NCBI RefSeq assembly: GCF_001659685.2
Contig: NZ_LXYE02000020.1
Coordinates: 1-64,000 of the forward strand
Length of the DNA stretch: 64,000 nt
Direction: 5' to 3'
Source of the DNA: Labilibacter marinus
GTDB lineage: Bacteria > Bacteroidota > Bacteroidia > Bacteroidales > Marinilabiliaceae
Shown here piece after piece: positions 14,472 to 43,077 of this stretch. Within the stretch, counting starts at the first letter, position 1. Every line of letters starts with the position of its first letter. A program made the translations under genes and the position numbers. The notes under the pieces were generated by a model. It saw only the letters and a program-made list of their open reading frames with translations, was not told the DNA's origin and did no database searches.

Positions 14472-14490
14472 GTGTAAAATATATTTACAC
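14472..14490. promoter_or_regulatory. Candidate activator-binding palindrome, site 1
   Basis: GTGTAAAATATATTTACAC is a near-perfect inverted repeat 75-95 bp upstream of the sigma-54-like element. The same motif in reverse orientation occurs upstream of the second exporter module at 42229-42246. The position suits an enhancer bound by the NtrC-type regulator encoded next door. Confidence 0.6.
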
Positions 14491-14493
14491 TAG

Positions 14494-14516
14494 GATGTAA
14501 AATTTATTAACACATC
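14494..14516. promoter_or_regulatory. Candidate activator-binding palindrome, site 2
   Basis: This is a second inverted repeat with arms GATGT and ACATC around an AT-rich core, 3 bp after site 1. Paired sites are usual for hexameric sigma-54 activators. Confidence 0.5.
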
Positions 14517-14565
14517 ATCCGCAAGACAAAACACTTACTCACACATATTCAATACCTTATGCTTT

Positions 14566-14581
14566 TGGCACTGCTTTAGTA
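14566..14581 (+). promoter_or_regulatory. Sigma-54-like promoter for TolC operon
   Basis: TGGCAC at 14566-14571 matches the -24 element. With correct 12-bp spacing from the GG, the -12 position reads GT where the consensus is GC, so the match is good but not perfect. The GTG start codon lies 30 bp after it. Confidence 0.5.
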
Positions 14582-14611
14582 TTATAAAAGTCAAAACACA
14601 AAAACTATATC

Positions 14612-15946
14612 GTGAAAAAAATAATATTACATAGCTTTATATTCTTATTAACACTGTCTGCAGCGCAAGGGCAAGAAATGTGGACGGTTAATAAGTGTGT
14701 TCAGTATGCCATTGAAAACAACCTTAATTATAAGAGTTATGATTTAAGTGTAAAAAGTGAGCGCATGTCTGCTGCACAATCTAAGTACGATTTATTACCT
14801 TCTGTTTCTGCATCAACATCAGGAGGGATGAGTTATGGTAGAAGTTTAGATAACAGCACAAATAGATATACAGATACAGAGCACTTTAGCGCTAACGGTA
14901 GCATTGGAGCTAACTTAAATATATTTCGTGGTTTTAGTAAGCTGAACAGAATGGCTTACACTAAATTTAGATTACAAGCAGCGGAATGGAACAAATTGAA
15001 TTATCAAGACGACTTGGCTTTTGATGTTTTATCTACTTATTATGATGTGGTGTTTTACGCCGGATTGGTTAGCATTGCGAAAGACCAACTTGAGATTTCG
15101 GAATATAATCTTAAAAAGACAAATGCTCAGGTTGAGATAGGTTTACAGGCTAAATCAGATCTTCTACAAATGCAAGCCGCTCTAGAAAGAGAAAAGCTAA
15201 ATATCATCATGGCCCAGAATAAATTAGATGAAATTAAATACAGACTTTGGGAGCAAATGAATTTTAGCCTTGGACAAACGAATGACTTTGATATTGATTA
15301 TAGTATCCATCCAAAGTTAATACTTGCAAATCCACAGTCTGATTCGGTGTTTCATGTGTTTAGCGAGTTTTCGCCATTGTTAAAAAAAGGACAGGCTGAT
15401 TTATTGGCAGCTGAAAAAAATGTGGCTATTACCAAAGGTTTTTATTACCCTTCGGTTAATTTAAATGCTTCTGTTGGTTCGCGCTTTAATGATACCGATA
15501 TAGATGATAACGGCAATGTAGTTGGCTTTCCTACTCAGTTCGACAACAACTTAAACAAGTATGTAGGTGCTTCTATTTCTATTCCTATTTTTAATAGAAA
15601 TCAACAACGAACACGTGTTAAGCAAGCCAAAATTAGTCATGAGCAAGTTTTAAATGATTATGAAGAGCAAAAATTGTCTTTGTATTATCAAATTGCCAAT
15701 GACACCCGCGAGTTGCAGGCTTTACAAACCAAATATGTGCAAACAGAAAAGAAGTTAAAGGCAGATAATTTGGCTTACGAGGTAGCCTTGAAAAAATATA
15801 ACGAAGGGCTAATTAATGTAATTGAATTACTGACTGTAAAGGATAGGTTGGTGAATTCCGAGAGTCAATTATTACTAGCCCAAATTCAGTATCAGATAAA
15901 AAGCAAAACCTTAGAATTTTACCTAGGAAATCGCTTTTGGCAATAA
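14612..15946 (+). CDS. TolC family outer membrane efflux channel
   Basis: The product has 444 residues. A GTG start is chosen because it gives a complete signal peptide (MKKIILHSFIFLLTLSAAQGQ). The mature protein shows the duplicated TolC layout of long helices and short strands: WTVNKCVQYAIENNL near the N-terminus, YGRSLDNSTN and a FRGF strand, then a second half with ISIPIFNRNQQR and a C-terminal YNEGLINVIELLTVKDRL. It would form the trimeric outer membrane duct for the HlyD-like adaptor and MacB-type transporters encoded downstream. It is the first gene behind the candidate sigma-54 promoter. Confidence 0.92.
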   Translation: MKKIILHSFIFLLTLSAAQGQEMWTVNKCVQYAIENNLNYKSYDLSVKSERMSAAQSKYDLLPSVSASTSGGMSYGRSLDNSTNRYTDTEHFSANGSIGANLNIFRGFSKLNRMAYTKFRLQAAEWNKLNYQDDLAFDVLSTYYDVVFYAGLVSIAKDQLEISEYNLKKTNAQVEIGLQAKSDLLQMQAALEREKLNIIMAQNKLDEIKYRLWEQMNFSLGQTNDFDIDYSIHPKLILANPQSDSVFHVFSEFSPLLKKGQADLLAAEKNVAITKGFYYPSVNLNASVGSRFNDTDIDDNGNVVGFPTQFDNNLNKYVGASISIPIFNRNQQRTRVKQAKISHEQVLNDYEEQKLSLYYQIANDTRELQALQTKYVQTEKKLKADNLAYEVALKKYNEGLINVIELLTVKDRLVNSESQLLLAQIQYQIKSKTLEFYLGNRFWQ

Positions 15947-16055
15947 GCTAGAAGGAAAAGGGAAATAGGAACAAGGAGAAGGGAACCGGAAGAAAGAAAA
16001 AACAAAAATATTAAGCGCTATTACCAATAGCTCAAAACTGAAAAAATACTCGATT
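15947..16055. repeat. Purine-rich spacer
   Basis: The stretch 15950-16002 is almost entirely purine, built of AAGGGAA- and GGAAC-like words, between channel and adaptor genes. Similar tracts occur at 17313-17363 and 18614-18665. Confidence 0.4.
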
Positions 16056-17312
16056 ATGTCGATGGATAAAGTTATAGAACAGAAAAAGGGATTAAAGAAA
16101 AAGCATATTATTTGGGGTGCTGGTGCACTACTATTTATTGCTTTGATTGTACAGATTTCCTTGAGCAGTCATCAATCGGTTTACCGCACCGAAAAAGACA
16201 AGCTTACCATAAGTGCAATTATCGATGGGCAGTTTAATGATTATATCACCATCCCTGGAAGGGTAGAACCTATTTCTACCATTTATTTAGATGTGGAAGA
16301 AGGTGGAAAAGTAGAGGAAATTTATATTGAGGAAGGCGAAATGGTTCGCAAAGGTGATGTTATTCTTAAACTAAAAAATACAGATCTAAATACTTCTATC
16401 ATGAATAGTGAATCGCAGTTAGCGTACCACGCCAACGAAATGCGAAACACGCAGATACAGATGGAACAACAGCAAATTTCGAATAAACGCTCGAAATTAC
16501 AAATGGACTTGCAAGTGGTTAGAGCCAAAAGAAAACATAGTCAATATGAGCGTTTATTTAAGGAAGAGTTAATTGCCAAAGAAGATTACATTCAAGCCAA
16601 AGAGGAATACGATTTATCTATTCGTGAACAAGAGCTAACCTACCAAAAAATGGTTCAGGACTCTATCTTCAGATCGGTGCAAAAAAAACAAATGGATGAG
16701 AGTTTGGAGAATACTCGTCTAAGTCTTGCAATGGCACGCCAACGTTTAGATAACCTACATGTAAAAGCACCATACGACGGGCAGCTAGGTTTATTAAATG
16801 CAGAAATTGGTCAGTCGATAAACCGAGGACAACGATTAGGTTTGGTGAATGTACTCACCGACTTTAAAATCAGCGCACAGATAGACGAGCATTATATTGA
16901 TAGAGTTAAACGTAAACTTCAGGCCTCTTTCGAAAGAAATGATACGGACTTTGGCCTAAACATTAAAAAGGTTTATCCTGAGGTTAGGAATGGTCAGTTT
17001 GAAGTTGACATGGTGTTTACAGGTGAACGTCCAAATAATATCAGAACAGGACAAACCTACCATATTAAGTTAGAGCTCGGTCAGCCAGAACAAAGCGTAT
17101 TGATTCCACGCGGTGGTTTTTTCCAAAGCACAGGTGGCCAATGGGTGTATGTACTCAACCAAAACGGTACCGAAGCCATTAAACGCAATATTAAAATCGG
17201 AAAACAAAACCCTAAATACTATGAAGTAATAGAAGGCCTACAAGCTGGTGAAAAAGTAATTATATCGAGCTATGATTTGTTTGGGGAGAATGACCGAATA
17301 ATATTGAAATAG
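16056..17312 (+). CDS. HlyD/MacA-like periplasmic adaptor
   Basis: The product has 418 residues with one N-terminal membrane anchor (about 19-38). The lipoyl half-motif is GKVEEIYIEEGEMVRKGDVILKL, the other half is VKAPYDGQLGLLNAEIGQ, and a long coiled-coil hairpin lies between them (about 105-225). A beta-barrel domain and membrane-proximal domain close the protein (GQTYHIKLELGQPEQSVLIPR). It would bridge inner-membrane permeases to the TolC-like channel. An ATG two codons downstream is equally possible as the start. The gene follows the channel gene by 109 bp of purine-rich sequence. Confidence 0.92.
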   Translation: MSMDKVIEQKKGLKKKHIIWGAGALLFIALIVQISLSSHQSVYRTEKDKLTISAIIDGQFNDYITIPGRVEPISTIYLDVEEGGKVEEIYIEEGEMVRKGDVILKLKNTDLNTSIMNSESQLAYHANEMRNTQIQMEQQQISNKRSKLQMDLQVVRAKRKHSQYERLFKEELIAKEDYIQAKEEYDLSIREQELTYQKMVQDSIFRSVQKKQMDESLENTRLSLAMARQRLDNLHVKAPYDGQLGLLNAEIGQSINRGQRLGLVNVLTDFKISAQIDEHYIDRVKRKLQASFERNDTDFGLNIKKVYPEVRNGQFEVDMVFTGERPNNIRTGQTYHIKLELGQPEQSVLIPRGGFFQSTGGQWVYVLNQNGTEAIKRNIKIGKQNPKYYEVIEGLQAGEKVIISSYDLFGENDRIILK

Positions 17313-17363
17313 CGAAGGGCAAGGGGCAGAGGGCGTGGTGAGGAGAGCAAAGGGCAAGGGGCC
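17313..17363. repeat. Purine-rich tract, left of second S23-type gene
   Basis: Words such as AAGGGGC and GAGGGCG are repeated. AGAGCAAAGGGC at 17344-17355 is exactly complementary to 17882-17893 on the other side of the S23-type gene. Confidence 0.55.
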
Positions 17364-17431
17364 AACTATTTATAATAATAGAAATTCATTATTTTGGTTT
17401 TAAATATATTAACCAATAAAACTGATAAAAC

Positions 17432-17794
17432 ATGGCAACATTTAGATTTATGAATTTGGATATATGGAAGGAGGCCATTGCTTTAAATGACACCTTCTTT
17501 GAATTGGCAGATATCCTATCTGAGTCAAGAAGCTATAGAGTCGCTGAACAATTAAGAGCTGCATCCTTAAGTATATCAAATAATATAGCAGAAGGTTCGG
17601 GTTCGTATTCTGACAAAGACTTTGCAAATTTTCTAAATTATGCCCGACGTTCTGCTTTTGAATGTGCAAACATTATGTGTGTCCTTTTTAATAGAAAGAT
17701 AATAAGCAAGGAACAGTTAGATGAGAACTTAAATAAACTAGACATACTGAGTCGTAAGATTTCGAATTTTAGAAAAACGCTATTGAAGACATAG
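17432..17794 (+). CDS. Four-helix-bundle protein, S23/IVP-like family (second copy)
   Basis: The product has 120 residues, all-helical, with MNLDIWKEAIALND, LSISNNIAEGSGSYSDKDFANFL and ARRSAFECANIM, the signature blocks of the S23/IVP family. It differs clearly in sequence from the copy at 13995-14354, so the two are not a recent duplication. It interrupts an otherwise functional series (channel, adaptor, ATPase) and is flanked on both sides by purine-rich tracts whose 12-bp cores are inverted copies. A passenger insertion is more likely than a role in export, though neither is shown. Confidence 0.82.
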   Translation: MATFRFMNLDIWKEAIALNDTFFELADILSESRSYRVAEQLRAASLSISNNIAEGSGSYSDKDFANFLNYARRSAFECANIMCVLFNRKIISKEQLDENLNKLDILSRKISNFRKTLLKT

Positions 17795-17865
17795 AAATAG
17801 ATGCGTAGGCAAGATGCTATTTCATCTTACACAATGCTTCAAACTAACAATATAAACTAAGCACC

Positions 17866-17901
17866 TTGCAAATAGCCATAAGCCCTTTGCTCTGTGCCCC
17901 A
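17866..17901. repeat. Inverted tract, right of second S23-type gene
   Basis: GCCCTTTGCTCT at 17882-17893 is the reverse complement of the core of the left tract (17344-17355). The ATPase gene starts just after it. Confidence 0.55.
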
Positions 17902-17911
17902 AGCTGAAAAA

Positions 17912-18613
17912 ATGATAAAAACAGAGAATTTAAAAAAAGTATTTCGCACCGAAGACATAGAAACCAGTGCGCTAAATAGTGTAAATATCCATATTGAAAA
18001 AGGCGAATTTGTGGCCATAATGGGACCTTCGGGTTGTGGTAAATCAACCTTGATGAATGTGGTGGGATTACTAGATAATCCAAGTGAAGGAAACTACTAT
18101 TTCGATGGTACTGAGGTGGGTAACATGAAAGAGAAAAACAGAACTCAACTGCGCAAAGGAAATATCGGTTTTGTATTTCAGAGCTTTAACCTGATTGACG
18201 AGCTGAATGTATTTGAAAATGTTGAGCTGCCATTGATCTACCTAAAGTACAAAGCCAAAGAACGTAAGGCAATGGTTGAAAAAGTACTGGACAGAATGAA
18301 GATTGGTCATCGTCGCAAACACTTTCCACAACAATTATCCGGTGGACAGCAGCAGCGTGTAGCTATTGCACGTGCAGTGGTAGCTAACCCAAAACTGATA
18401 TTGGCCGATGAGCCTACGGGTAACTTAGATTCTAAAAACGGACAAGAGGTAATGAACCTGCTAACCGAGCTTAACCGCGAAGGAACCACCATAGTAATGG
18501 TAACGCACTCGCATCGCGATTCGGATTATGCACACCGTGTAATCAACCTTTTCGATGGTCAGGTGATTACCGAAGAAATGAAAAAGGAGATTGGCGAATT
18601 GTCGATGATGTAG
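17912..18613 (+). CDS. MacB/LolD-type ABC transporter ATPase
   Basis: The product has 233 residues, the usual length for the MacB/LolD/FtsE class. Walker A is GPSGCGKST (38-46), the Q-loop Gln is 90, the signature is LSGGQQQR (142-149), Walker B is LILADE (162-167), the D-loop is NLD, and the switch His is His199. All catalytic residues are present. The ATG at 17912 is preferred over a GTG 18 bp upstream that lies in the repeat tract. It is the only ATPase in front of eight permeases, so it probably energises several of them, in turn or in alternative pairings. Confidence 0.93.
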
Positions 18614-18962: not shown

Positions 18963-21275
18963 ATGATACTACGTAACCTAAAAACCTTTATCAAACATCT
19001 ATTAAAAAACAAGTTATATACACTTATCACGGTACTTGGTTTCGCTATCTCTTTAATGTTTGTAACGCTTTTAACGGTGTATATTCAAAAAGAGTATTCA
19101 AACGATAAGTTTCACGTAAACAAAGACAGGGTATATCGATTGGTTCATGATGAGTATTCAGGTTTTGCCCCTCCTAGTGGACCGGCTTTAATGGATAAGT
19201 TTTCCGAAATAGAGTGCTTTACACGCACATACGATAGGGAAGGATATATTTCCATCAACAGCACAGAGAAGTTTAAAATCAACTACTTAATGGTGGATTC
19301 TGTCTTCCTTAAGATGTTCTCATTTCCATTAATTAAAGGAAATATAGAAACAGCACTACAGCATAAATCTATTGTACTTACAGAATCATACGCGCTAAAG
19401 TTATATGGTAAAATACCTGAAATAGGTCAATTACTGCAAGTGAACGATAATGTAAAGTTTAAAATTGGTGGTATTATGAAGGACTTTCCTGAAAATACAC
19501 ACTTCAAACAAGTTGATGCACTCATCGATTTTCCTTCTTTAGCAATACAATGGAATTCCCCAAACCTGATGACTACCTATGACAATAACTCATTTGGCTT
19601 ATATGTTATGGAAAAACTCCATACAAATTTTGCCTCCAGAGCACCCGATATTCTTGAATTATATACCAAAGTAAACTGGATGTATGAAAAAGAACAAGCT
19701 AAGGAGGTTGTATTTGAACCCTTAACTGATGTATATTTTGGAGATTCTTATTCTCCTGGTATAAAACAAGGTAGCCAAAGATTACTTCGCGTTCTTTCAA
19801 GCATTGTTATACTAATATTACTACTATCTATCTTAAACTACATTAACTTAACGGTAGCTCAATCAGGCAACAGAAGCAAAGAGATTGCCGTTAAAAAATT
19901 AATGGGAAGTAAGCGCCACAGCCTATTAATACAGTACACCTTTGAGTCAGCACTAATTACATTTATTTCTTATCTCATAGGCTTAGCTTTATGTTTTGAG
20001 GCTGAACCAATATTCAATTATTTATTAAATACAAACTTAGAATTAAGCAGTTTTATAAGTCTTCATTTTCTTGTAACAACTGCTTTAGGAGCCATCTTAA
20101 TAGGAGTAATTTCAGGAATAATACCTGCCATTACGGTTTCTAATTTTAATCCTGTTGATGTGGTTAAAGGCGTATTCCGCTTAAAAAGTAAAGCCTACTA
20201 CTCAAAAGGACTTATCACTTTCCAGTATCTCATTATAGTGATACTTATTATAGGGGCTTTATTCATCGATAAACAAACCTCGTTTATGCGTGATTATGAT
20301 TTAGGTTATAACAAGGACAATGTACTGGTTATTAACAATACCATTGGTGCTCATCAGCGCAATGCCTTTAAGTCTCAATTGGAAGCTATAGCGGGCGTAC
20401 AACATGTTTGCTATGTAAAAGGAAATCCCATTGATGGAGGAAATAATTACACCATGGAATACAAAGAGAAGATGATTAGCTTCCAAGCTTTTAATGTCGA
20501 TTCTTCTTTTTTTAAGATGATGAATATGGAAGTAAAGCTAACAGGCGTAGCATACTCTAACAATGCCATTCTGCTAAACAAAACAGCTGTAAAAATGATG
20601 GAGCTTCCTAACAATCCTACATCCGCTGAAATTTTTGGAAAAGCCCGACCTGTATACGGTGTTGTTAAGGATTTTCATTTTAGAGCACTGAAAGAAAAAG
20701 TTGGACCTATATTTTTTAGTCTCCAGCCTAAGCAAGATGTTTGGAGCATTATGGTAAAGGTATCTAACAAAAATACCTTTAATACAGTTCAGCAAGTTAA
20801 AAGTACCTATACCGAGTTTACACATGGCCTACCCATAACCATGAGCTTTATGGATGAAAGTATTAACCAATGGTACGAAAGTGAAAATAGAATTGGACAA
20901 CTAATAAAGTACTTCACCTTACTTACAGTTATTATCTCCATTATGGGCTTGTTTGCTATGTCGATGTATTACGTGCAACAAAAAACCAAAGAAATTGGCG
21001 TAAGAAAAGTAAATGGAGCAAAGGTTATTGAGATACTTACCATGCTTAATAAAAACTTTATGACATGGGTAGCTGTGGCTTATATATTGGCTTGCCCTAT
21101 TGCCTATTATGCCATGAATAAGTGGCTCGAAAACTTTGCCTATAAAACAGAAATTAGCTGGTGGATATTTGCCTTGGCAGGGTTCATTGCTTTGATGGTA
21201 GCACTTATAACAGTAAGCTGGCAGAGCTGGAAAGCAGCCACTCGTAATCCCGTGGAAGCCTTGAGGTATGAGTAA
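18963..21275 (+). CDS. FtsX/MacB-type ABC permease 1
   Basis: The product has 770 residues in the doubled Bacteroidota layout: a membrane helix near 15-37, a periplasmic MacB_PCD-like domain, three helices, a second helix and periplasmic domain, then three more helices. The coupling motifs that touch the ATPase are KEIAVKKLMGS in the first half and KEIGVRKVNGA in the second, both well kept. One chain therefore equals a full permease pair. The last 19 residues (SWQSWKAATRNPVEALRYE in most copies) are shared with its neighbours. It is the first of eight, after the ATPase gene and a repeat-filled gap. Confidence 0.9.
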   Translation: MILRNLKTFIKHLLKNKLYTLITVLGFAISLMFVTLLTVYIQKEYSNDKFHVNKDRVYRLVHDEYSGFAPPSGPALMDKFSEIECFTRTYDREGYISINSTEKFKINYLMVDSVFLKMFSFPLIKGNIETALQHKSIVLTESYALKLYGKIPEIGQLLQVNDNVKFKIGGIMKDFPENTHFKQVDALIDFPSLAIQWNSPNLMTTYDNNSFGLYVMEKLHTNFASRAPDILELYTKVNWMYEKEQAKEVVFEPLTDVYFGDSYSPGIKQGSQRLLRVLSSIVILILLLSILNYINLTVAQSGNRSKEIAVKKLMGSKRHSLLIQYTFESALITFISYLIGLALCFEAEPIFNYLLNTNLELSSFISLHFLVTTALGAILIGVISGIIPAITVSNFNPVDVVKGVFRLKSKAYYSKGLITFQYLIIVILIIGALFIDKQTSFMRDYDLGYNKDNVLVINNTIGAHQRNAFKSQLEAIAGVQHVCYVKGNPIDGGNNYTMEYKEKMISFQAFNVDSSFFKMMNMEVKLTGVAYSNNAILLNKTAVKMMELPNNPTSAEIFGKARPVYGVVKDFHFRALKEKVGPIFFSLQPKQDVWSIMVKVSNKNTFNTVQQVKSTYTEFTHGLPITMSFMDESINQWYESENRIGQLIKYFTLLTVIISIMGLFAMSMYYVQQKTKEIGVRKVNGAKVIEILTMLNKNFMTWVAVAYILACPIAYYAMNKWLENFAYKTEISWWIFALAGFIALMVALITVSWQSWKAATRNPVEALRYE

Positions 21276-21307
21276 ACATTTTAAAGTAAATACTTTTTCT
21301 TAATCTG

Positions 21308-23674
21308 ATGAATAAAACAAACATAAAGCTACTCTGGCGCAATATTAAAAGAAAACCCGTTTATTCTTTTATTTCCATATCCGGATTTTCTATTGCTATT
21401 ACCGCATCCTTGTTAATTTGTTTATGGGTTCTGGATGAAACTAGATTTGAAGAATTTCATCCTTCTCATGAAGATATTTATAGGGTTCTTACCTTATCAA
21501 GAAAGGGAGGAGAACTAAAGAAAACTGCTAATAGTGCAAGAGCTTTAGCTGCAACATTAAAGGAAGACTATCCGCAAATAGAAGAAGCAGCCCTAATTAG
21601 TTTTAGCTCGGAAGATTCTCCTTTAATTGTAAAAGAAACTGGCAAAAAGATTGAAGCTAGAAGAGCATGGGTAAACGATGGCTTTTTCGTTGTATTTGAT
21701 GGCTTTAAGTTTATCGAAGGATCACAAACAACAGCTTTAAAGGATAAAAATAACATCATTCTTTCTAAAAGAACGGCCAATAAGTTGTTTGGAAATGAAT
21801 CTGCCTTAGGTAAAACAATACTTAGTAATAAGTATAACGAAATACTTTATAAAGTAGGTGGAGTTATTGATATCCCAGATCAAAGCCATATTCAGATTGA
21901 CTATTTGTTGCCTGCTAAAAATATACGAAGCAATTGGCGCTTGACTGTATTTGACCATACCTATATTAAACTATCTAAAAACGCTGTAATAACTAGAGAC
22001 TTTAAAAAGAACATTAGAAATCATTTATCAAAATATACCAAAACTAATGATAGGCTATTGTTTCAAGCACTTACCGATATTCATTTATATACAGATTATG
22101 AGGTATATTTAAATGATAAGCACATTGGTCATTTCAAATATGTTTGGATATTTTCAGGTTTAGCTGTACTAATAATGATTATGGCTGCCATGAATTTTGC
22201 TTCATTAACCATTGCCAGATCGTCGGATCGAGCCACGGAAGTTGGAATTAGAAAAATATCCGGATCTAAAAAAAGTGCATTATCCATTCAGTTTATTAGC
22301 GAATCAGTTATACAAACCAGTTTAGCTCTTGTTATTGCAGTAGGCTTAACTGCTTTATTACTTCCATGGTTTTCTTCCTTAACTAATAAGGGATATCACA
22401 TTAGCGACTTACCTATACCAATTTTGGTTGTATTCCTATTTTCAATTATTGTTGGAGCCTTATCTGGTTTTATTCCTTCTTCGTACCTAAGTTCTTTTAA
22501 TCCAGTCTTAATCTTTAAAGGAGGAAATCCGGAAGGATCAAAGGCTTTATTTATTAAAGCTTTGGTTGTTATTCAGTTTACAATTGCCATTATTTTTATT
22601 GTAGCAACTACAACCGTTTTTAAGCAATTGCAATACATCAATAACAAAGAATTAGGAATTAATAAAAGTGATATTGTAGTTATTCATACTGGCCTTTGGT
22701 ATAGGAATAAACCTTTTAAGCAAGCATTATTAGATAATCCTAATATATTAGGAGTTACTTCTTCTGCACGTGCGCCTGTCGATTTTATGTGGCAAACTAC
22801 CTTTGGGTACAATAGTAAAGCGGGGCCTGATAGTATCGAAGGATCTCTATTTTGGGTTGATGAAGGTTTTGCATCAACCTATGGACTTGCTCTTGAGAGA
22901 GGAAGATTTATTTCTCAAAGTTTTGAAGAATACAAACAAGAGTCAAAAAAAGCCTTTAAGAGTAGGAAGTTTCCTGTTGTGGTAAACGAGTCATTCGTAA
23001 AGAAACTAAATGTGAGTGATCCTATCTTAACAAGGTTAAATAGTCAATATGAAATTATAGGTGTGGTAAAAGATTTTCATTACCGCCCTCTTCATCACAA
23101 AATTGCACCATTAGTAATGGTTTATGATCCACAGTGTATTAATACACTAAATGTGCGAATAAATAGTAAAAACAAAGAGGCTACTCTTGAATTTATTACT
23201 GATGTGTATAAAAAATATCGTAACGGAAGATCTATGTCATATAGCTTTTTTGAGGATGAAGTGGATACAGTATATCATGCAGAAAAACAAATGGGTAACC
23301 TGATACTGTATTTCTGTTTATTGGCCATTTTTATAGCCATTATAGGAATGTTTGGTTTATCCATTTTTGCCATTGATCGTCGAGGTAAAGAAATTGGAAT
23401 TAGAAAGGTAAATGGAGCTAAAATTATAGAGGTATTAACCTTGTTAAATATGGACTTTGTTAAATGGATAACGGTGTCTTTTCTTTTTGCATGTCCTGTT
23501 TCATATTTAGTTATGAATAATTGGCTAGAATCATTTGCCTATAAAACAGAACTCAGCTGGTGGATATTTGCCTTAGCAGGATTTTCAGCCTTAGGCATTG
23601 CATTAATGACCGTCAGCTGGCAAAGCTGGAAAGCAGCCACTCGTAATCCCGTGGAAGCCTTGAGGTATGAGTAA
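21308..23674 (+). CDS. FtsX/MacB-type ABC permease 2
   Basis: The product has 788 residues with the same eight-helix layout. The first coupling motif is TEVGIRKISGS and the second KEIGIRKVNGA. The periplasmic domains differ strongly from permease 1, which suggests different partners or cargo. The gene follows by 32 bp, so cotranscription is likely. Its 3' end holds an 85-nt tract (23534-23618) identical to the 3' end of permease 4, against low identity elsewhere, a mark of gene conversion. Directly after the stop codon begins the first of two near-identical spacers. Confidence 0.9.
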   Translation: MNKTNIKLLWRNIKRKPVYSFISISGFSIAITASLLICLWVLDETRFEEFHPSHEDIYRVLTLSRKGGELKKTANSARALAATLKEDYPQIEEAALISFSSEDSPLIVKETGKKIEARRAWVNDGFFVVFDGFKFIEGSQTTALKDKNNIILSKRTANKLFGNESALGKTILSNKYNEILYKVGGVIDIPDQSHIQIDYLLPAKNIRSNWRLTVFDHTYIKLSKNAVITRDFKKNIRNHLSKYTKTNDRLLFQALTDIHLYTDYEVYLNDKHIGHFKYVWIFSGLAVLIMIMAAMNFASLTIARSSDRATEVGIRKISGSKKSALSIQFISESVIQTSLALVIAVGLTALLLPWFSSLTNKGYHISDLPIPILVVFLFSIIVGALSGFIPSSYLSSFNPVLIFKGGNPEGSKALFIKALVVIQFTIAIIFIVATTTVFKQLQYINNKELGINKSDIVVIHTGLWYRNKPFKQALLDNPNILGVTSSARAPVDFMWQTTFGYNSKAGPDSIEGSLFWVDEGFASTYGLALERGRFISQSFEEYKQESKKAFKSRKFPVVVNESFVKKLNVSDPILTRLNSQYEIIGVVKDFHYRPLHHKIAPLVMVYDPQCINTLNVRINSKNKEATLEFITDVYKKYRNGRSMSYSFFEDEVDTVYHAEKQMGNLILYFCLLAIFIAIIGMFGLSIFAIDRRGKEIGIRKVNGAKIIEVLTLLNMDFVKWITVSFLFACPVSYLVMNNWLESFAYKTELSWWIFALAGFSALGIALMTVSWQSWKAATRNPVEALRYE

Positions 23675-23850
23675 TAACGACCGTCTTTGCACCCTCTAAC
23701 TCCCTAAAGGGAGAACCGGCAAAAACTACAGTGTATAGAGAATAAATGAAAAAATATGAGTCAGGTCATAACTGAAATAATAAATGAATGCAAGGCCAAA
23801 TTGGAGCTGCCAGAAAGTCCCCTTTAGGGGATTTAGGGGTAATCACAAAC
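23675..23850. repeat. 176-bp spacer repeat, copy A
   Basis: It is near-identical to 26334-26509; I saw one clear substitution (AAAAAATATG versus AAAAGATATG). It includes two short hairpin-forming pieces, CTCCCTAAAGGGAG and CCCCTTTAGGGG, the latter of a kind often repeated in Bacteroidota genomes. Confidence 0.9.
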
Positions 23851-23907
23851 TGGCAAAGCTGGAAAGCAGCTACACGTAATCCTGTTGAGGCCTTGAGGTA
23901 TGAGTAA
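23851..23907 (+). pseudogene. Orphan 19-codon permease tail, copy A
   Basis: The codons read WQSWKAATRNPVEALRYE and stop, the exact C-terminus of the neighbouring permeases, with no gene in front. It is the leftover of a permease 3' end, either from deletion of a gene or from duplication of a tail-plus-spacer unit. Confidence 0.88.
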
Positions 23908-23954
23908 TTAGCTATGGCAAGCACTAAGTATGAATAAGTATAAACACGACAACT

Positions 23955-26333: not shown

Positions 26334-26509
26334 TAACGACCGTCTTTGCACCCTCTAACTCCCTAAAGGGAGAACCGGCAAAAACTACAGTGTATAGAGA
26401 ATAAATGAAAAGATATGAGTCAGGTCATAACTGAAATAATAAATGAATGCAAGGCCAAATTGGAGCTGCCAGAAAGTCCCCTTTAGGGGATTTAGGGGTA
26501 ATCACAAAC
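26334..26509. repeat. 176-bp spacer repeat, copy B
   Basis: It directly follows the stop codon of permease 3, just as copy A follows permease 2. Length is the same and sequence nearly the same. Confidence 0.9.
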
Positions 26510-26566
26510 GGGCAAAGCTGGAAAGCAGCCACCCGTAATCCCGTGGAAGCATTGCGGTATGAGTAA
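26510..26566 (+). pseudogene. Orphan 19-codon permease tail, copy B
   Basis: It reads GQSWKAATRNPVEALRYE and stop; the first Trp codon has become Gly. The third-position differences from copy A show that the tail diverged or was exchanged separately from the spacer. Confidence 0.88.
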
Positions 26567-26595
26567 TAGAAATTAATTGATAAATCAGTATTCTT

Positions 26596-28956: not shown

Positions 28957-28970
28957 TAAATAATGAATTT

Positions 28971-31361: not shown

Positions 31362-31494
31362 TAAAAAGACCATCACATATAAACATAAACAAACATGAAA
31401 CGACCATGCAAGTTCAATCAATTAATTTGCACACAGGGCAATGATTGAACTTATTTGGGAGTTCCATCTGACAAATAAAAATAAATTTAAACAG

Positions 31495-33900: not shown

Positions 33901-33931
33901 TAATGCAAATTGACAGAACTAAATCAATATC

Positions 33932-36259
33932 ATGATACAAACTACAAGTATAAAGCTAATTATAAGAAATTGGAGACGGAATAAACTGTTTACGTTTACA
34001 GCTATTTTAAGTTTAGTTATTGGTTTTGCTTGTTGCAACCTGTTAACTGCTTTCGTAATTAATGAATGGAAAATATCAAATAGTAGTATTGATAATGATA
34101 GGATTTTTGCGCTAAAAACAGATAACCCAATGACCTTGGAGACCACGAAAGAAAAGAGTTCGTGGATTATGAAAAAAGTACCGCCATTATTTAAAAAACG
34201 CTATCCCGAAATAAACTCCTACTGCAGATTTAATACCGTTTATAGTGAAGCTATTTTTAAATCGAACGGTTTTAAAACAAACGACATCCATTTTCTACAA
34301 GCAGATAAAACCATTCGTGATTTTTTTAAAGTCCCTATAGTTGTTGGTAATTTAAGTAAAACGCTTTCTTCTCCCGATGAAGTTGCTATAACTAAAAGTT
34401 GGGCTCAAAAAGTCTTTGGTACTGCTGATATAATAGGGGAGGTTTTAGAAATGGAGGAGGATAAATCGTTAAAGAAAATTACAACGGTAATTGACGATTC
34501 TTATACGGCATCATTTATTAGTTACGATGTTCTTTTACCATTTAATAATGAGGAATTTTGGGGAGGAGTAACATTTTTAAAGCTCAATGAAGCTAATGCA
34601 TTGGCAAACCTGCAACAAAAAATAGATAATGATATTAAAGAGCTTCCAAAGTTTACCAATGATTGTAATTATTATTTACAGCCATTAACCGATTTTTATT
34701 TCGATAAAAGTGAGTCGCAAACAAATTGGACTTTTTTACTTAAGCGTGATAGCCTTTTTGTTAAGGTAGGCATATTCGCCGCTTTGGCTATACTTTTTGT
34801 AGCCTGTTTCAACTTCATCAATTTATACATGGTTCGCCTGTTTAAATCCAACACCAATAATTCAATTCAAAGGTTGCTTGGAGCAAGTTATTGGCAATTA
34901 CAGAAACATATATTGCTCGAATCCTTCATCACCACTTTTGTTGGCTTTTGCGCTTCATTGGTTGTAGTAATACTCTCATTACCCATCTTTAATAATTTGT
35001 TTAGTGCACATCTTTCTCTCTCATTTTTATTAGATAAAACCGTTATTCTTATCTATTTATTATTAATTACCATCTTAACCATTATTCCCACTATTTATCT
35101 TGGAATTAAATTTAAGGAGAAAGGTTTTGGTAAATTACTCAATACTAATTCATCTAACGTAAAAACAGTATTTAGTAATACCTTAATAACAATACAATTT
35201 GGCTTTTCTATTTTATTAATAATAGCTGCGGTTTTATATATGCGACAACTTAATTTTATTTCTGAAACTGCCAATGTAAACCCAAATGTGATTGAGATAC
35301 AAGGAGAAGATATCCCAGACATAGAATTTAAGACCTTTAAAGAACAGGTTAATAATTTGGCTCATGTGGAGGCTTCTTCAACAGCCAATAATTCATACTT
35401 AAATGCCTGGTTGGTTTTAGGTGATGATAATGTAGCAACCTTAGGTTATAATATGGATTGTGATTTTATGAAGGTTCATAATATCCATCTAATAAAAGGA
35501 GAAGGTTATTCCATTAATTCTGAAGCCAATCAAAATCAAGGAATTGTAAATGAAACATTTTTAAAAAAATATCAGCTTGACTCACCTATTGGGAAAAATA
35601 TAGAAATTGGAGGTAATCATATTCAAATAGTTGGAGTGGTTAAAGATTTTCATACTGAACCTTTTAGTAAGAAAGTACAACCAACGATTATTATGCCGTA
35701 CAAACCAGCTGATGATATTTTTAAAACCATCAATATAAAATTTCATAAAGGTATACATAAACAGGAAGCATTAAGTAGTTTAGAAGTTTTATGGAATACT
35801 AACTTCCCCAACAAAAACTTTACCTATAGTTTTCCTGCTGACGATTTTAAAGCTTTACATAAGGATTACGACAACCTTGCTGAAATGATAGGCTTTTTTA
35901 CCGTCATTAGCTTCTTACTAACAGCTTTTGGCCTGTTCGGAATTGCTTGTTATACGGTAGAATATCGAACCAAAGAAATAGGCATTCGAAAAGTAAATGG
36001 TGCCAAAACATCAGAAATACTCTCTTTATTGAATAAAGGCTTTATCAAATGGGTTGTTTTAGCCTTTATAATAACATGTCCAATCGCTTTTTATATCATG
36101 AGAAATTGGCTTGAGAATTTTGCTTACAAAACCGAATTCAGCTGGTGGATATTTGCCATAGCAGGGATTTCGGCCTTAGGTATTACTATAATCACCGTCA
36201 GCTGGCAAAGCTGGAAAGCAGCTACACGGAATCCGGTGGAATCCTTACGTTACGAATAA
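33932..36259 (+). CDS. FtsX/MacB-type ABC permease 7
   Basis: The product has 775 residues. The first coupling motif has decayed (NNSIQRLLGASYWQLQ), the second is KEIGIRKVNGA. The first periplasmic domain is shorter than in permeases 2-6. The tail reads FSWWIFAIAGISALGITIITVSWQSWKAATRNPVESLRYE in pieces shared with permease 6. The spacing to neighbours (31 and 25 bp) supports cotranscription. Confidence 0.9.
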   Translation: MIQTTSIKLIIRNWRRNKLFTFTAILSLVIGFACCNLLTAFVINEWKISNSSIDNDRIFALKTDNPMTLETTKEKSSWIMKKVPPLFKKRYPEINSYCRFNTVYSEAIFKSNGFKTNDIHFLQADKTIRDFFKVPIVVGNLSKTLSSPDEVAITKSWAQKVFGTADIIGEVLEMEEDKSLKKITTVIDDSYTASFISYDVLLPFNNEEFWGGVTFLKLNEANALANLQQKIDNDIKELPKFTNDCNYYLQPLTDFYFDKSESQTNWTFLLKRDSLFVKVGIFAALAILFVACFNFINLYMVRLFKSNTNNSIQRLLGASYWQLQKHILLESFITTFVGFCASLVVVILSLPIFNNLFSAHLSLSFLLDKTVILIYLLLITILTIIPTIYLGIKFKEKGFGKLLNTNSSNVKTVFSNTLITIQFGFSILLIIAAVLYMRQLNFISETANVNPNVIEIQGEDIPDIEFKTFKEQVNNLAHVEASSTANNSYLNAWLVLGDDNVATLGYNMDCDFMKVHNIHLIKGEGYSINSEANQNQGIVNETFLKKYQLDSPIGKNIEIGGNHIQIVGVVKDFHTEPFSKKVQPTIIMPYKPADDIFKTINIKFHKGIHKQEALSSLEVLWNTNFPNKNFTYSFPADDFKALHKDYDNLAEMIGFFTVISFLLTAFGLFGIACYTVEYRTKEIGIRKVNGAKTSEILSLLNKGFIKWVVLAFIITCPIAFYIMRNWLENFAYKTEFSWWIFAIAGISALGITIITVSWQSWKAATRNPVESLRYE

Positions 36260-36284
36260 ATACTAACCCTTAACAATCTGAATC

Positions 36285-38603
36285 ATGTTAATTCAATACT
36301 TAAAAAGTGCGTGGAGAAATATTTGGAGAAACAAGCTTTCTTCATCTATAAATATTATCGGACTTGCTGTTGGGCTAGCCACCGGTATTTTAGCTATGCT
36401 TTTCTCATATCATGAAATAAGCTATGAAAAATGCCATGATAAAGCCGATCAAATAGCGAAAGTCATTACGTATGGCAATTTTGGAGCTTTCCGACAGTTA
36501 CCCACTACTTTCCCGCAAACTGCATTTGATTTACCCGGTAAATTTCCTGCCATAACAAAGGCTGTGCGTACACGAAGTATTGAGAATGCCACTGTTTTTA
36601 AAGATAAAACACCTATTCTGGAAGAGTCCATGATGATAGCGGAACCGGACTTGCTGAATATGTTTAGTTTTGATATTACGCAAGGTATATATTCGGGACA
36701 AGGCAATACCATCATTTTATCCGATGTAATGGCTCGTAAATATTTTAGTAATGAAGATGCGATAGGAAAAGTATTAAAGATTGAAATTTATGGAAATATA
36801 TTTCATTTAACGGTAGAAGGTATTTATAAAGACTTACCCGATAATACGCATTTAAAGTCTTCCGCTATCTTAAGTTGGAACGTGGCTAAGGTGTTGTATA
36901 AAGAAAGGCAAGGGTTTCATTCTACAGATTTTGATGTCTATTGCTTATTGCAACCTTCAGCTAATATTCAAAGCTTAAACCAGCAAATTGTAGCCAACTA
37001 TGAGTTGCCAGTTAATATTGAAAATTGCACTGTTGCTTTAATGCCTATCAAAGATTTTCATTTAAGAAGTGCTTTTGAGAACAACTCGGCTAACTTATAT
37101 CTTCTATTTATTGGAGGCTGTGTTGCCCTGCTCATTGCCATTTTCAACTATGTATCGCAGTCTACCATCCAATATTCTATGCGAACGCAAGAGGTAGGTA
37201 TCCGTTTATCTAACGGAGGAAAATCCAGGGATATTTTCATACAGTTTATGGTTGATACCCTCCTAATAACCTTATTGGCCTTTGGTATTTGCCTGTTGAT
37301 GTTATCTTCTGCTTTACCTTATTTCAATGATTTAGTAGATACAAATATCAGCTTAAACCTAGATTTAGAATATTACCTCATCATCCTATCCTTATTTGTT
37401 CTGACTGTAGTTCTGGCAGGATTCTATCCCTCCATGGTAATGGCAAAAGTAAAGCCTGGATTGCTATTAAAATCCGCGGTGAGTCCAACCGTAAGTAAAA
37501 GTAAGATGCGCAGTGTATTAACAACCGTACAATTTGTTTTTGCAATACTGTTGATTCAAATTATGATTGTATCGCAAAGGCAAGGTCATTATATCGAAAA
37601 TGCTAGCATAACTGGCTTTGATGCCGAAAATGTAATAGCCATAAACGGATATAAGTGGGGAAAGTTAGATAAAATAAAAAACGAGTTACTTCGGAATAGC
37701 TCTATTGAGGCTGTGTCTTGGGGGCAAAGTATGCCAGGCATGCAAACTAGTATGACGGTGGAATGGAAAGGTACGGATAACAAACTAATGGCCAATAAAT
37801 TTCATTGCGAATCTGGTTATCTCGATCTATTTAAAATTAAAATGGAAAGTGGTCGTAATTTTTCTAGCGACAATAAATCTGATTTAAAAAATGGAGTACT
37901 TGTTAATCATTTATTAGTAGAAACCATGGCTTGGAAAGAGCCTATTGGAAAAACGCTAAAAGTGAATAATAAAGACCACATTGTATTGGGAATTGTGAGT
38001 AACTACATGGCTGCACCTCCCATTTTTGATGATACGCCTTTAATTATTTTACCCGCAGGCAAACAAGCCTATAATTTAATGATAAGAGTAAATCCTAATA
38101 AGAGGCAAGAAGCGCACCAGCATATCACAGCGGTGCTAAGACAAGCCAATCCTAATTACCCTATCAATTTACGATATTACAAAGAGATTACCTATGAATT
38201 AGCTAAGTCCTTTATTTCAATGGCTACCTTGGTAAATGCTTTTGTCATCATCATTATACTAAATGCCTTTTTATCACTATTTGGTCTGTCGCATTTTATT
38301 ACCGAACGCGCCAAAAAACAAATTGGCGTAAAAAAAGTATTTGGGGCTTCCATCATGAATGTGTATTGGGAATTATCAAAAAGCTTTGTCATACGATTTC
38401 TAATTGCCTTTGTAATCATAACCCCGATATCCTATCTGTTTAGTACGCAGTACGTGGCCACCTTTTCACGCCAGCTTCCTTTAACAGCAGATATATTTAT
38501 TCATAGTGGATTAATGGTTTTGGCTATGCTATTGCTAGCCACCAGTTATAAAATCATCAAGTCGGCCCTCGATAATCCTGTAGAGGCATTGCGATATGAG
38601 TAA
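36285..38603 (+). CDS. FtsX/MacB-type ABC permease 8
   Basis: The product has 772 residues and is the most divergent of the array. Coupling motifs are QEVGIRLSNGG and KQIGVKKVFGA. The C-terminal membrane region (LTADIFIHSGLMVLAMLLLATSY) lacks the FAYKTELSWWIF block, and only the last residues NPVEALRYE match the others. It is the last gene of the series; its stop codon directly abuts the stop codon of the convergent symporter gene. Confidence 0.9.
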   Translation: MLIQYLKSAWRNIWRNKLSSSINIIGLAVGLATGILAMLFSYHEISYEKCHDKADQIAKVITYGNFGAFRQLPTTFPQTAFDLPGKFPAITKAVRTRSIENATVFKDKTPILEESMMIAEPDLLNMFSFDITQGIYSGQGNTIILSDVMARKYFSNEDAIGKVLKIEIYGNIFHLTVEGIYKDLPDNTHLKSSAILSWNVAKVLYKERQGFHSTDFDVYCLLQPSANIQSLNQQIVANYELPVNIENCTVALMPIKDFHLRSAFENNSANLYLLFIGGCVALLIAIFNYVSQSTIQYSMRTQEVGIRLSNGGKSRDIFIQFMVDTLLITLLAFGICLLMLSSALPYFNDLVDTNISLNLDLEYYLIILSLFVLTVVLAGFYPSMVMAKVKPGLLLKSAVSPTVSKSKMRSVLTTVQFVFAILLIQIMIVSQRQGHYIENASITGFDAENVIAINGYKWGKLDKIKNELLRNSSIEAVSWGQSMPGMQTSMTVEWKGTDNKLMANKFHCESGYLDLFKIKMESGRNFSSDNKSDLKNGVLVNHLLVETMAWKEPIGKTLKVNNKDHIVLGIVSNYMAAPPIFDDTPLIILPAGKQAYNLMIRVNPNKRQEAHQHITAVLRQANPNYPINLRYYKEITYELAKSFISMATLVNAFVIIIILNAFLSLFGLSHFITERAKKQIGVKKVFGASIMNVYWELSKSFVIRFLIAFVIITPISYLFSTQYVATFSRQLPLTADIFIHSGLMVLAMLLLATSYKIIKSALDNPVEALRYE

Positions 38604-39887: not shown

Positions 39888-40071
39888 TTTTAAAGATGCT
39901 AATGTTTGATTTGTAAAATAATGAAATATTCTGATTATCTAATTGTCTTTTTTGAACAGATGAGGCAATGCTTTAAAGCGAATAGATATCTGGTACGATT
40001 TAAATTAAAATATTTAGAGCTATTAATGTGAAAATTGAATAAGATAAATTTTTATCATACTAAATGCATTT

Positions 40072-40809: not shown

Positions 40810-40819
40810 ATCGTTTCGT

Positions 40820-41674
40820 TTATTTTCTTGAATACAGTTCAAATAATTTTTTAACACCTGGGATTTCACTATTAAAAAAGAACTTTTCGTTGTTTAATAT
40901 TTCTTTGGCCTTTGCACAGAAATCATTATCATTTATATGACTTAACAACTTTATAACCACCTGCTCGCGCGAAAACCCTGCTAATAACATATTTGATTCA
41001 TACAGGTTATTACTCCATTTTGCTTGGAGAATTTCTGTGGTTGCATTATTCATTAAGGATAATAAATGTTGCTCTCCATCAATTATCACATTCATTTGTT
41101 GACTTTGCCAATATTCAAGCACATTACTAGCCATAGATGTATATGCTATTTCTGCACCTGGTAATTCAACTGGATCGTATACTTGTATATGAACTTTTAC
41201 TCCTCGTTTAATGGCGTCTATAATTGATGATTTCACCCTTTTAAATGGCTCTGGAAAAATATCAATAATTGCTATTTGCTTGCATTGATCCATCATGGAG
41301 CAAAATTTTTCAAAAGCTAAGTCTGTTGAATTTATTGAATAACTTCTTTCATCAAAATGTGTTTTTCCAAGATTTCTTAATTGACTTTTTACCTTGGTCA
41401 TTTTTCTAATTAAAGATTTTTCATAATGACCAATGAACTCATCCGGCAATACTGCTTTGCAAATTCTTTTCGTATTATCCTCTATAATTACGGCCCCTTT
41501 TTGAGCCAAAGTATCCATGGCTTTATAAACGTTAGCAGCTGGTTTATTCAAATGCTTTGCAATACCATATGCTGTCATTGGCTCAGTTGTCAGCAAGCCA
41601 ATATATACTTCAGCTTCTAACAAATTAAATCCTATATCTAAAAGATCCTGATATAGTGTGTTATTTGATTTCAT
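40820..41674 (-). CDS. TrmB-like transcriptional regulator
   Basis: The product has 284 residues. The N-terminal winged helix is seen in LLDIGFNLLEAEVYIGLLTTEPMTAYGIAKHLNKPAANVYKAMDTLAQKGAV (about 10-60). After a linker comes a C-terminal domain with a phospholipase-D-like fold as in TrmB effector domains (AIIDIFPEPFKRVKSSIIDAIKRGVKVHIQVYDP). TrmB proteins usually bind sugars, but members in bacteria vary. It ends 10 bp before the CPBP gene on the same strand, so the two form an operon and the regulator may control it. Confidence 0.85.
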   Translation of the reverse strand: MKSNNTLYQDLLDIGFNLLEAEVYIGLLTTEPMTAYGIAKHLNKPAANVYKAMDTLAQKGAVIIEDNTKRICKAVLPDEFIGHYEKSLIRKMTKVKSQLRNLGKTHFDERSYSINSTDLAFEKFCSMMDQCKQIAIIDIFPEPFKRVKSSIIDAIKRGVKVHIQVYDPVELPGAEIAYTSMASNVLEYWQSQQMNVIIDGEQHLLSLMNNATTEILQAKWSNNLYESNMLLAGFSREQVVIKLLSHINDNDFCAKAKEILNNEKFFFNSEIPGVKKLFELYSRK

Positions 41675-41911
41675 TTATATACCGTTTATACAAAATCACT
41701 TATTATACAGACTTGACGACAAAAACTGTAAATAAATAATTACGTGTGTGAATAGATTTGTGCTTGCAAATGTATAGGATAAAACCATATTTATTATTAT
41801 ATATTTATACTACGTCGTAGGAGCATTGACAATCATAGTATTAAAGTCAAATATTGTAGTAGTTAACAATTAATTATATTGTGGAAATCCAATATATGTC
41901 TTAAAAAAAAG

Positions 41912-42131
41912 GTAACTATTCAGTAGTAAGACAAAAGTATAAAGACAAAAGACAAGAGTTTATTCATTGATACTTATAATTATTAAGTTCTGAATGATTC
42001 TTATTATTAAACTAATTTAAAGAACATAGCACCTTTTTTTATCATTGTTTAGCATGAACTAGAATGTATGAAAATTGTAAAATGCTCACATCTTTATACT
42101 TGTGTCTTTATTCTTTATACTGAATAGTAAC
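41912..42131. mobile_element. MITE-like inverted repeat
   Basis: GTAACTATTCAGTA (41912-41925) pairs with TACTGAATAGTAAC (42118-42131), 13 of 14 positions, and the similarity continues inward through AAAGAC-type words. AAAAAAG lies outside both arms and could be a target duplication. There is no open frame inside. The call is tentative. Confidence 0.35.
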
Positions 42132-42228
42132 AAAAAAGTATCATCCACAACTTATATTTTGCTCTATTGACATTATTTAATCTAAAGCAAATACTCATTT
42201 CGAACTGTAAAAAAATCATCCAGTAAAC

Positions 42229-42246
42229 TGTAAATATATTTTACAC
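42229..42246. promoter_or_regulatory. Candidate activator-binding palindrome, second module
   Basis: TGTAAATATATTTTACAC is the reverse-complement form of the site at 14472-14490, and the following ATC also matches. It lies about 55-70 bp upstream of the sigma-54-like element. Confidence 0.6.
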
Positions 42247-42298
42247 ATCAGATACAGCACTTATAAATAAATAACACTTAATCTGCACTTTATGAATA

Positions 42299-42315
42299 TT
42301 GGTATATTGTATGCA
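42299..42315 (+). promoter_or_regulatory. Sigma-54-like promoter of second exporter module
   Basis: TTGGTATATTGTATGCA has GG and GC in exact -24/-12 spacing with flanking TTGG and TGCA. The middle of the -24 box departs from TGGCAC. The ATPase start codon is 35 bp downstream. Confidence 0.5.
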
Positions 42316-43045: not shown

Positions 43046-43077
43046 GCACATGTAATCTTTTATCACGATCATAAATT

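Follow-up and report, generated by a model that had tools for sequence, protein, structure and literature searches.

A candidate sigma-54 regulon of two MacB-type exporter modules in Labilibacter marinus and related circuits in Bacteroidales

Genes and promoter-like elements of the two exporter modules

The stretch of Labilibacter marinus DNA analysed here (64,000 nt; the window) carries two exporter modules, the first of which lies beside genes for a two-component system. A sensor histidine kinase gene (11219..12589, minus strand; PAS and HATPase_c by Pfam) overlaps the gene for an NtrC-type response regulator (12586..13953, minus strand), in which Pfam identified a receiver (PF00072), a sigma-54 AAA+ domain (PF00158) and a Fis-type HTH (PF02954) with the recognition helix GITRQTLYNK. 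The sigma-54 contact loop of the regulator reads GAFTDA, as in all 57 homologues (of 62) whose loop could be read, the other five giving no match. Among the 25 matches listed for the kinase no NCBIfam equivalog exceeded its cut-off, and the regulator, too, scored under the cut-offs of those NCBIfam equivalogs that were listed for it. A four-helix-bundle (S23-type) gene (13995..14354, minus strand; PF05635, TIGR02436) follows and is probably a passenger; this family also has matches in a comparable position in locus L199. An earlier note on this DNA had placed regulator and kinase next to the first regulatory site; the adjacency stands, with the correction that the S23-type gene separates the regulator from the site.

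On the plus strand, the first module comprises genes for a TolC-type outer-membrane channel (14612..15946; PF02321), a periplasmic adaptor of RND_mfp or DarC-like type (16056..17312; TIGR01730 over cut-off, NF038010 below it), a second four-helix-bundle protein within the operon (17432..17794; PF05635) and a MacB/DarD/LolD-like ABC ATPase (17894..18613; PF00005, with NF038007 at 289 bits against a cut-off of 375). These are followed by eight successive MacB_PCD and FtsX permease genes (18963..38603; Pfam and open reading frames), beginning at 18963, 21308, 23955, 26596, 28971, 31441, 33932 and 36285. The second module, adjoined by a TrmB-type regulator gene (40820-41674), consists of a second ABC ATPase (42350..43045, plus strand; PF00005) and a ninth MacB_PCD and FtsX permease (43078..45396, plus strand; Pfam). 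All components of a tripartite MacB-type exporter are present, namely TolC, adaptor, ATPase and MacB_PCD/FtsX permease.

The earlier note had described a palindrome ahead of both modules, in reverse-complement form at the second, each followed by a -24/-12 element, and both observations were borne out. The palindromes, read from the sequence, are GTGTAAAATATATTTACAC at site 1 (14472-14490, plus strand) and TGTAAATATATTTTACAC at site 2 (42229-42246), and share an identical 17-bp core, TGTAAAATATATTTACA. The TGG of a sigma-54-type element follows after 75 bases at site 1 and 53 bases at site 2. The site 1 element, TGGCACTGCTTTAGT (14566..14580, plus strand), reads TGGCAC-N5-TAGT, a GG-N10-GT arrangement with GT rather than GC at -12, and ends 31 bases upstream of the GTG at 14612. 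The site 2 element, TGGTATATTGTATGC (42300..42314, plus strand), reads TGGTAT-N5-ATGC (GG-N10-GC) and lies 35 bases upstream of the ATG at 42350, which was chosen over the TTG at 42299 because the element overlaps that TTG. The genome encodes the matching sigma factor, with a full-length rpoN on G000:C11 (PF04552 match at G000:C11:115312-115785, 179.5 bits).

Beside each exact palindrome copy, at a distance of 22-23 bp, lies a second, degenerate dyad that the earlier note had overlooked. At site 1 the exact copy is the distal dyad (TGTAAAATATATTTACA; 14473..14489, plus strand; 92 bp from its start to TTGG), and the proximal dyad TGTAAAATTTATTAACA (14496..14512, plus strand; 69 bp) carries one half-site mismatch. 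At site 2 the exact copy is the proximal dyad (TGTAAATATATTTTACA; 42229..42245, plus strand; 70 bp), and a degenerate distal dyad TGTAAAAAAATCATCCA (42207..42223, plus strand), 22 bp upstream of it, retains 9 of 12 half-site bases; a similar half occurs at the equivalent position in the relative G003. The dyad pairs of both sites begin 69-70 and 92 bp upstream of the -24 box.

Frequency and conservation of the dyad–promoter arrangement

The genome (6,026,579 bp, or 6.03 Mb, in 81 contigs) was searched for these motifs. The exact 17-bp core occurs twice, once ahead of each exporter operon. At up to two mismatches the whole genome gave 12 matches against 11 for the reversed control, and at up to three mismatches the window held 4 matches against 1.89 expected, a count reached by 8 of 100 shuffles. 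The palindrome alone was therefore dropped as evidence, and the argument relies on the exact copies, their spacing and their conservation. The exact half-site pattern TGTAAA-N5-TTTACA was found at five genomic places against two for the reversed control; two of the five are the window sites and the other three overlap open reading frames, so that the pattern is not common here in unrelated intergenic regions. An ordered composite of TGTNAA-N5-TTNACA, 25-55 bp and TGGYAY-N5-WNGY occurs at two places in the genome, both inside the window. With the -12 requirement removed and gaps of 46-76 allowed, the same genome gave five matches against one in the reversed control, three of them being window dyads and the other two reading AA at the -12 G position.

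In relatives, the dyad was located between regulator and exporter in all ten orthologue loci mapped (L199, L201, L202, L204-L210), and its half-sites were present with at most one mismatch in L013-L022 and L024, loci fetched by regulator similarity alone. Half-sites and spacing are kept across many genera while the spacer bases vary. A search of 295 genomes of the order returned 39 matches against 8 for the reversed control, with a gap of 52-55 in 33 of the 39; among the 30 loci listed, 21 of 24 with this gap adjoin exporter genes (the own genome included), as does one of six with other gaps. A relaxed search of 393 Bacteroidales-order genomes gave 176 matches (summed over the tabulated rows) against 63 control matches counted by hand, and the dyad-to-promoter gaps peaked at 51-55 and 73-75 bp (86 of the 150 gaps listed). 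Among the orthologues, L021 departs from the spacing, no composite being detected there, and L022 and L024 have none at the 69/92 spacing. Across 395 genomes of the phylum, the strict A-type pattern (defined below) was at background beyond Bacteroidales, with 9 matches against 8 in the control (hand-counted), the expected spacing occurring in G000 and G629 (gap 51) only; the enhancer pattern, as covered by these strict half-sites, is therefore treated as mainly a Bacteroidales feature.

The promoter element is conserved as well. The -24 position of the site 1 element is kept in orthologues, and of 80 related promoters 67 have G at -12 (30 with GC, 29 with GT), with L018 and L020 reading GA. 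All 20 distinct promoters of L255-L273, loci fetched with no requirement at -12, carry this G. Of the five promoters listed for G748, three were fetched (C40, C66 and C79). Promoters of the same type also lie ahead of head-GIN/Toastrack-like and outer-membrane barrel genes in some other genomes, which suggests an envelope-defence regulon.

Recognition helices and dyads of paralogous regulators

Paralogous regulators near similar exporters have different recognition helices and different dyads. Among 104 regulators, the class A helix R[QP]TLY, a definition broadened after L016 and L278 had been examined, is accompanied by TGTNAA-N5-TTNACA in 22 of 27 cases, the class B helix R[TA]SLYR by TGTNCG-N4-CGNACA in 51 of 54, and the helix RSTLY[DM]K by TGTNGG-N5-CCNACA in 11 of 12. 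In one helix tabulation, which used loci of at least 200 bp, 54 of 110 loci yielded no helix by pattern, and L139 and L195 came without upstream DNA. In newly fetched loci alone the matching dyad accompanied the B helix in 31 of 31 cases and the A helix in 4 of 5. At least one pair of the test loci, L032 and L291 (both from G035), looks near-duplicate, and L297 resembles L117. An R-P-T-L-Y regulator was present in all 14 genomes selected for A-type promoters, and the single genome G016 contains three classes together, every one of them paired with a dyad of its own. The A-helix regulators L121, L126 and L129 (Bacteroides/Mediterranea) had no A-dyad at a 9-of-10 threshold.

The correlation is built on few independent evolutionary changes: on a tree built without the HTH, and with rows shorter than 380 residues left out, helix A changed once and helix B three times, and independent-pairs tests of the correlation were not significant. 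A first automatic dyad finder returned almost nothing for the paralogues, and the B and C forms came from reading the sequences. The C pattern GTC..GAC was rejected as a class marker, being found in 19 of 27 A and 7 of 54 B regulators. Eight D-helix regulators gave a B match in five cases and a D match in four. A composite search with the S dyad in 149 relatives yielded 35 matches against 17 in the control (hand counts), with TGGYAY often at a gap of 64-65 rather than 51-55; support is weak here because S promoters frequently have AGGCAY as their -24 box. In class B, distances taken from 67 loci were mostly 90-91 (19 of 31 counted) with few near 69, and the proximal dyad is therefore less regular in this class.

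Proposed regulon and its relation to known systems

The earlier note had proposed that both exporter operons belong to a regulon of the adjacent NtrC-type regulator. The location of the dyad, flanked in ten loci by regulator and exporter genes, the two-peaked spacing and the change of dyad with recognition helix support this proposal, and we put at about 0.85 the probability that the adjacent two-component system controls the two operons as a small sigma-54 regulon, one instance of a wider module family. In the mechanism we infer, the membrane kinase would phosphorylate the regulator, dimers of which would occupy two dyads about two helical turns apart, with centres near -111 and -88 relative to the inferred start. 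The dyad-bound regulator would then assemble into a hexamer; by remodelling RpoN-RNA polymerase at the -24/-12 element it would turn on the TolC-adaptor-ATPase-permease genes and the second ATPase-permease pair. Such regulator-enhancer-exporter modules may form a family that Bacteroidales share with some other bacteria, and its paralogous regulators would hold their target sites apart by different recognition helices; the likely role would be to defend or maintain the cell envelope.

That role has a competitor, unlikely yet worth weighing, in which the regulon is correct but the system serves mainly to secrete a product made by the cell itself, in the manner of darobactin export. The darobactin-export families are the top or nearly the top matches of adaptor and ATPase, with every score under its cut-off, whereas head-GIN/Toastrack-like and barrel genes share the promoter type elsewhere and no biosynthetic genes were seen among the subset of window proteins scanned. 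Identity with the darobactin exporter DarBCD itself was rejected, the NCBIfam cut-offs not being reached (184.1/450, 289.1/375 and 90.7/700 bits). MacAB-TolC and DarBCD-type exporters have TolC, adaptor, ATPase and MacB_PCD/FtsX permeases in common with the system here, which differs in having eight permease genes behind one ATPase gene and in scores below the equivalog cut-offs.

It is improbable that the dyads are sites of another factor, such as the TrmB-type protein, acting as repressor or co-activator while the NtrC-type regulator binds elsewhere. The TrmB-like gene adjoins module 2 and palindromic dyads are typical of many factors, but the dyads stand at set distances from the -24 box, and neither their position beside the NtrC-type gene across genomes nor their shift with its recognition helix fits such a factor; they are most likely sites of the adjacent NtrC-type regulator. 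It is very improbable that the two exact copies arose by chance or through a recent duplication and that the -24/-12 elements only resemble promoters. The motif is AT-rich and its loose matches are at control level, but dyad and spacing persist in many genera despite varying spacers, the gap histogram is two-peaked and the -12 G is kept where no search demanded it.

The regulator resembles the NtrC, ZraR and AtoC type in its receiver-AAA+-Fis HTH architecture and in tandem dyads upstream of a -24/-12 element. The NtrC dyad has 6-bp half-sites and a 5-bp spacer, as do the dyads here. The regulator here differs from this type in its MacB/FtsX exporter targets, its half-sites and its GAFTDA rather than GAFTGA loop. 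The TyrR box, TGTAAA-N6-TTTACA, has identical half-sites, and strong and weak boxes are adjacent at some promoters, as here; in the part of PMC4374768 available, however, the promoters described are sigma-70 ones of genes for aromatic amino acids. With a spacer of 5 rather than 6 and an NF008085 score of 235 bits against a cut-off of 576, the regulator was not taken to be TyrR.

The earlier note had called such a regulon poorly described. The sigma-54 link to FtsX-type permeases is already given by a 2025 in-silico survey, whose accessible portion reports sigma-54 promoter enrichment for COG0577 in Bacteroidia and presents it as first evidence, but gives for these genes neither a regulator nor an enhancer dyad, a spacing or classes of recognition helix (PMC12316311). 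No description of the enhancer code or regulator assignment was found in the open PMC library, outside which subscription papers and preprints lie. In the same phylum, experimental sigma-54-type promoters of Flavobacterium psychrophilum (motif SM4) serve genes that include envelope stress and protein quality control; as far as the available text of PMC9723704 goes, these are not exporter operons and no enhancer code is given.

On balance we lean slightly towards the wider proposal that a whole family of sigma-54 exporter circuits, insulated from one another, operates in Bacteroidales and their relatives, with dyads read through a short helix code at half-site positions 5-6 (R[QP]TLY with AA, R[TA]SLYR with CG, RSTLY[DM]K with GG), a fixed promoter architecture and targets that would make up an envelope-defence response. 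To our knowledge, sigma-54 control is poorly understood in Bacteroidales. If the proposal is true, the recognition helix of a regulator would predict its promoters, so that many unannotated exporter and envelope genes could be linked to a sensor kinase in a single step. The paralogous enhancer-binding proteins would offer a natural series for studying how related circuits remain separate, and a route towards the signal that switches on multi-permease pumps.

Two promoters with a shared dyad

Searching the whole genome of L. marinus (6,026,579 bp) revealed only two exact copies of the 17-bp core TGTAAAATATATTTACA, at 14473-14489 on the forward strand before the TolC operon (site 1) and at 42229-42245 on the opposite strand before the second ATPase-permease pair (site 2), bearing out the earlier claim of a palindrome shared by both exporter modules. 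At two mismatches the core motif was no more frequent than its reversed control (12 vs 11 genome matches), and thus the palindrome by itself carries little weight. Its half-site form, TGTAAA-N5-TTTACA, has five exact copies, compared with two for the reversed control; apart from the two in the window, all of them overlap open reading frames, and the palindrome is therefore not common in unrelated intergenic DNA of this genome. The order-restricted composite, in which a dyad, a gap and a -24/-12 (sigma-54-type) element follow in fixed order, was found twice in the genome, both times in the window.

The correctly spaced sigma-54-like elements described in the earlier note were confirmed as GG-N10-GY at 14566-14580 (-12 GT, 31 bases before the start codon at 14612) and 42300-42314 (-12 GC, 35 bases before the start codon at 42350). 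Each exact copy is paired with a weaker dyad, 23 bp downstream of it at site 1 and, at site 2, 22 bp upstream. In both promoters, dyad starts therefore fall 69-70 and 92 bp ahead of the TTGG of the -24 box. A dyad half similar to the site 2 partner occupies the same place in the related genome G003. Among the L054-type and related promoters, GT at -12 (14579-14580 in the window) is about as frequent as GC (29/80 vs 30/80).

Upstream of site 1 are the genes for a kinase (11219-12589) and the NtrC-type regulator (12586-13953), and RpoN is encoded in the same genome. Site 1 is followed by TolC (start 14612), an adaptor (start 16056), an ATPase (start 17894) and eight MacB_PCD/FtsX permeases in a row (18963-38603), giving one ATPase gene for eight permease genes in contrast to the usual one-to-one MacB arrangement; site 2 precedes the second ATPase and permease (42350-45396). 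The sigma-54 contact loop of the regulator reads GAFTDA in place of GAFTGA, as in all 57 homologues with a readable loop (of 62). Two four-helix-bundle genes (S23-type, TIGR02436) lie within the cluster (13995-14354 and 17432-17794), with family matches at similar positions in L199, L204, L205, L207 and L211.

Conservation of dyad and spacing

Among regulator loci gathered by protein similarity and scored at no more than one half-site mismatch, the dyad was present in L013-L022 and L024 and absent from L023, L025-L035 and L037-L042, while the single match in L036 lay within the regulator gene itself. It was located between regulator and exporter in 10/10 larger orthologue regions (L199, L201, L202, L204-L210). 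The dyad-TTGG distance was 68-70 or 91-93 in seven loci (L013-L016, L018-L020); L017, L021, L022 and L024 were exceptions, lacking the composite or showing a different spacing.

Across 295 genomes of the order, a dyad followed after 25-55 bp by a -24/-12 element gave 39 matches in 30 genomes, compared with 8 for the control, and the gap was 52-55 in 33 of the 39. Of 30 loci returned, an exporter homologue was present in 21/24 with this gap (the window's own included) and 1/6 with other gaps. A looser search of 393 genomes, with the -12 requirement relaxed and gaps of 46-76 allowed, yielded 176 matches, compared with 63 for the control, counted by hand. The 150 gaps listed peaked at 51-55 (54 matches) and 73-75 (32 matches), about two helical turns apart.

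Recognition helices and their dyads

Regulators beside similar exporters were found to form helix classes, each with its own dyad: A (R[QP]TLY) with TGTNAA-N5-TTNACA, B (R[TA]SLYR) with TGTNCG-N4-CGNACA, and S. Among 104 regulators analysed, those of class A (n = 27, with a helix definition extended to allow N, S or K once L016 and L278 had been seen) carried the A-dyad in 22 cases, the S-dyad in one and the B-dyad in none. The B helix (n = 54) was accompanied by the B-dyad in 51, the A-dyad in two and the S-dyad in none, and the S helix (n = 12) by the S-dyad in 11, the A-dyad in one and the B-dyad in none. A D helix (n = 8) was found with B- (5), D- (4) and S-dyads (2), and three regulators had other helices. 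The B pattern, derived from earlier loci, was recovered in 31/31 newly fetched B-helix loci (A-dyad, 1/31) and the A-dyad in 4/5 newly fetched A-helix loci; with shuffled upstream DNA, the A pattern passed the threshold in 7.1% of cases and the B pattern in 2.1%. The S pattern, derived from L302 and L307, was present in 9/10 other S-helix regulators.

In a tree built without the HTH, class A requires one change and class B three; the regulators are therefore not independent, and independent-pairs tests of the helix-dyad pairing were not significant. Retention by each clade of its own dyad, while the rest of the intergenic DNA differs, speaks for function. Genome G016 encodes all three classes, each with its matching dyad (L022, L293, L302), and the window's genome encodes classes A (L013) and B (L196). 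An exporter homologue lay within the fetched stretch in 73/81 regulator loci, and an R-P-T-L-Y regulator was present in 14/14 genomes picked for A-type promoters from the 104 with matches.

In the third class (L302 and other S-class loci), the helix RSTLY[DM]K goes with the dyad TGTNGG-N5-CCNACA, which is often upstream of adaptor genes, and the -24 box is often AGGCAY. In L121, L126 and L129 (Bacteroides/Mediterranea), with an A-like helix SRQTLYNK, the upstream repeats instead take the form GTC..GAC.

Proposed control and regulon content

The arrangement observed in the window is real, and its sequence features look functional as a form of NtrC/sigma-54 control. In the proposed mechanism, the kinase would pass phosphate to the NtrC-type regulator, which would occupy both dyads (about -111 and -88) and drive ATP-dependent opening of RpoN polymerase, leading to expression of both exporter modules. 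The class A half-sites are the same as those given for the TyrR box (PMC4374768), with a spacer one base shorter. In silico enrichment of sigma-54 promoters before FtsX-type permeases in Bacteroidia is described in PMC12316311, in which this link is termed the first. In the open PMC literature, we found no paper that assigns these exporters a regulator, dyads with their spacing, or helix classes.

Some genomes contain several such enhancer-promoter units. Among 21 promoters in stretches fetched from four genomes (G012, G770, G807, G748), 13 had a TolC, adaptor, ATPase or permease gene directly downstream, and one had no assigned ORF. Pfam analysis of the other seven identified three DUF2807 proteins, two OMP_b-brl_3 barrels, one GNAT and one family-less protein; two of the DUF2807 (head GIN) proteins also gave a weak DUF4097 Toastrack match. 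The DUF2807 genes lie behind the same unit in L262, L272 and L259 (G807, G748 and G770). Toastrack proteins have been found in phage-shock-type envelope-stress neighbourhoods, according to PMC11237479. Together with the DUF2807/Toastrack and barrel targets, this points to the sigma-54 exporter promoters being part of a putative envelope-defence regulon.
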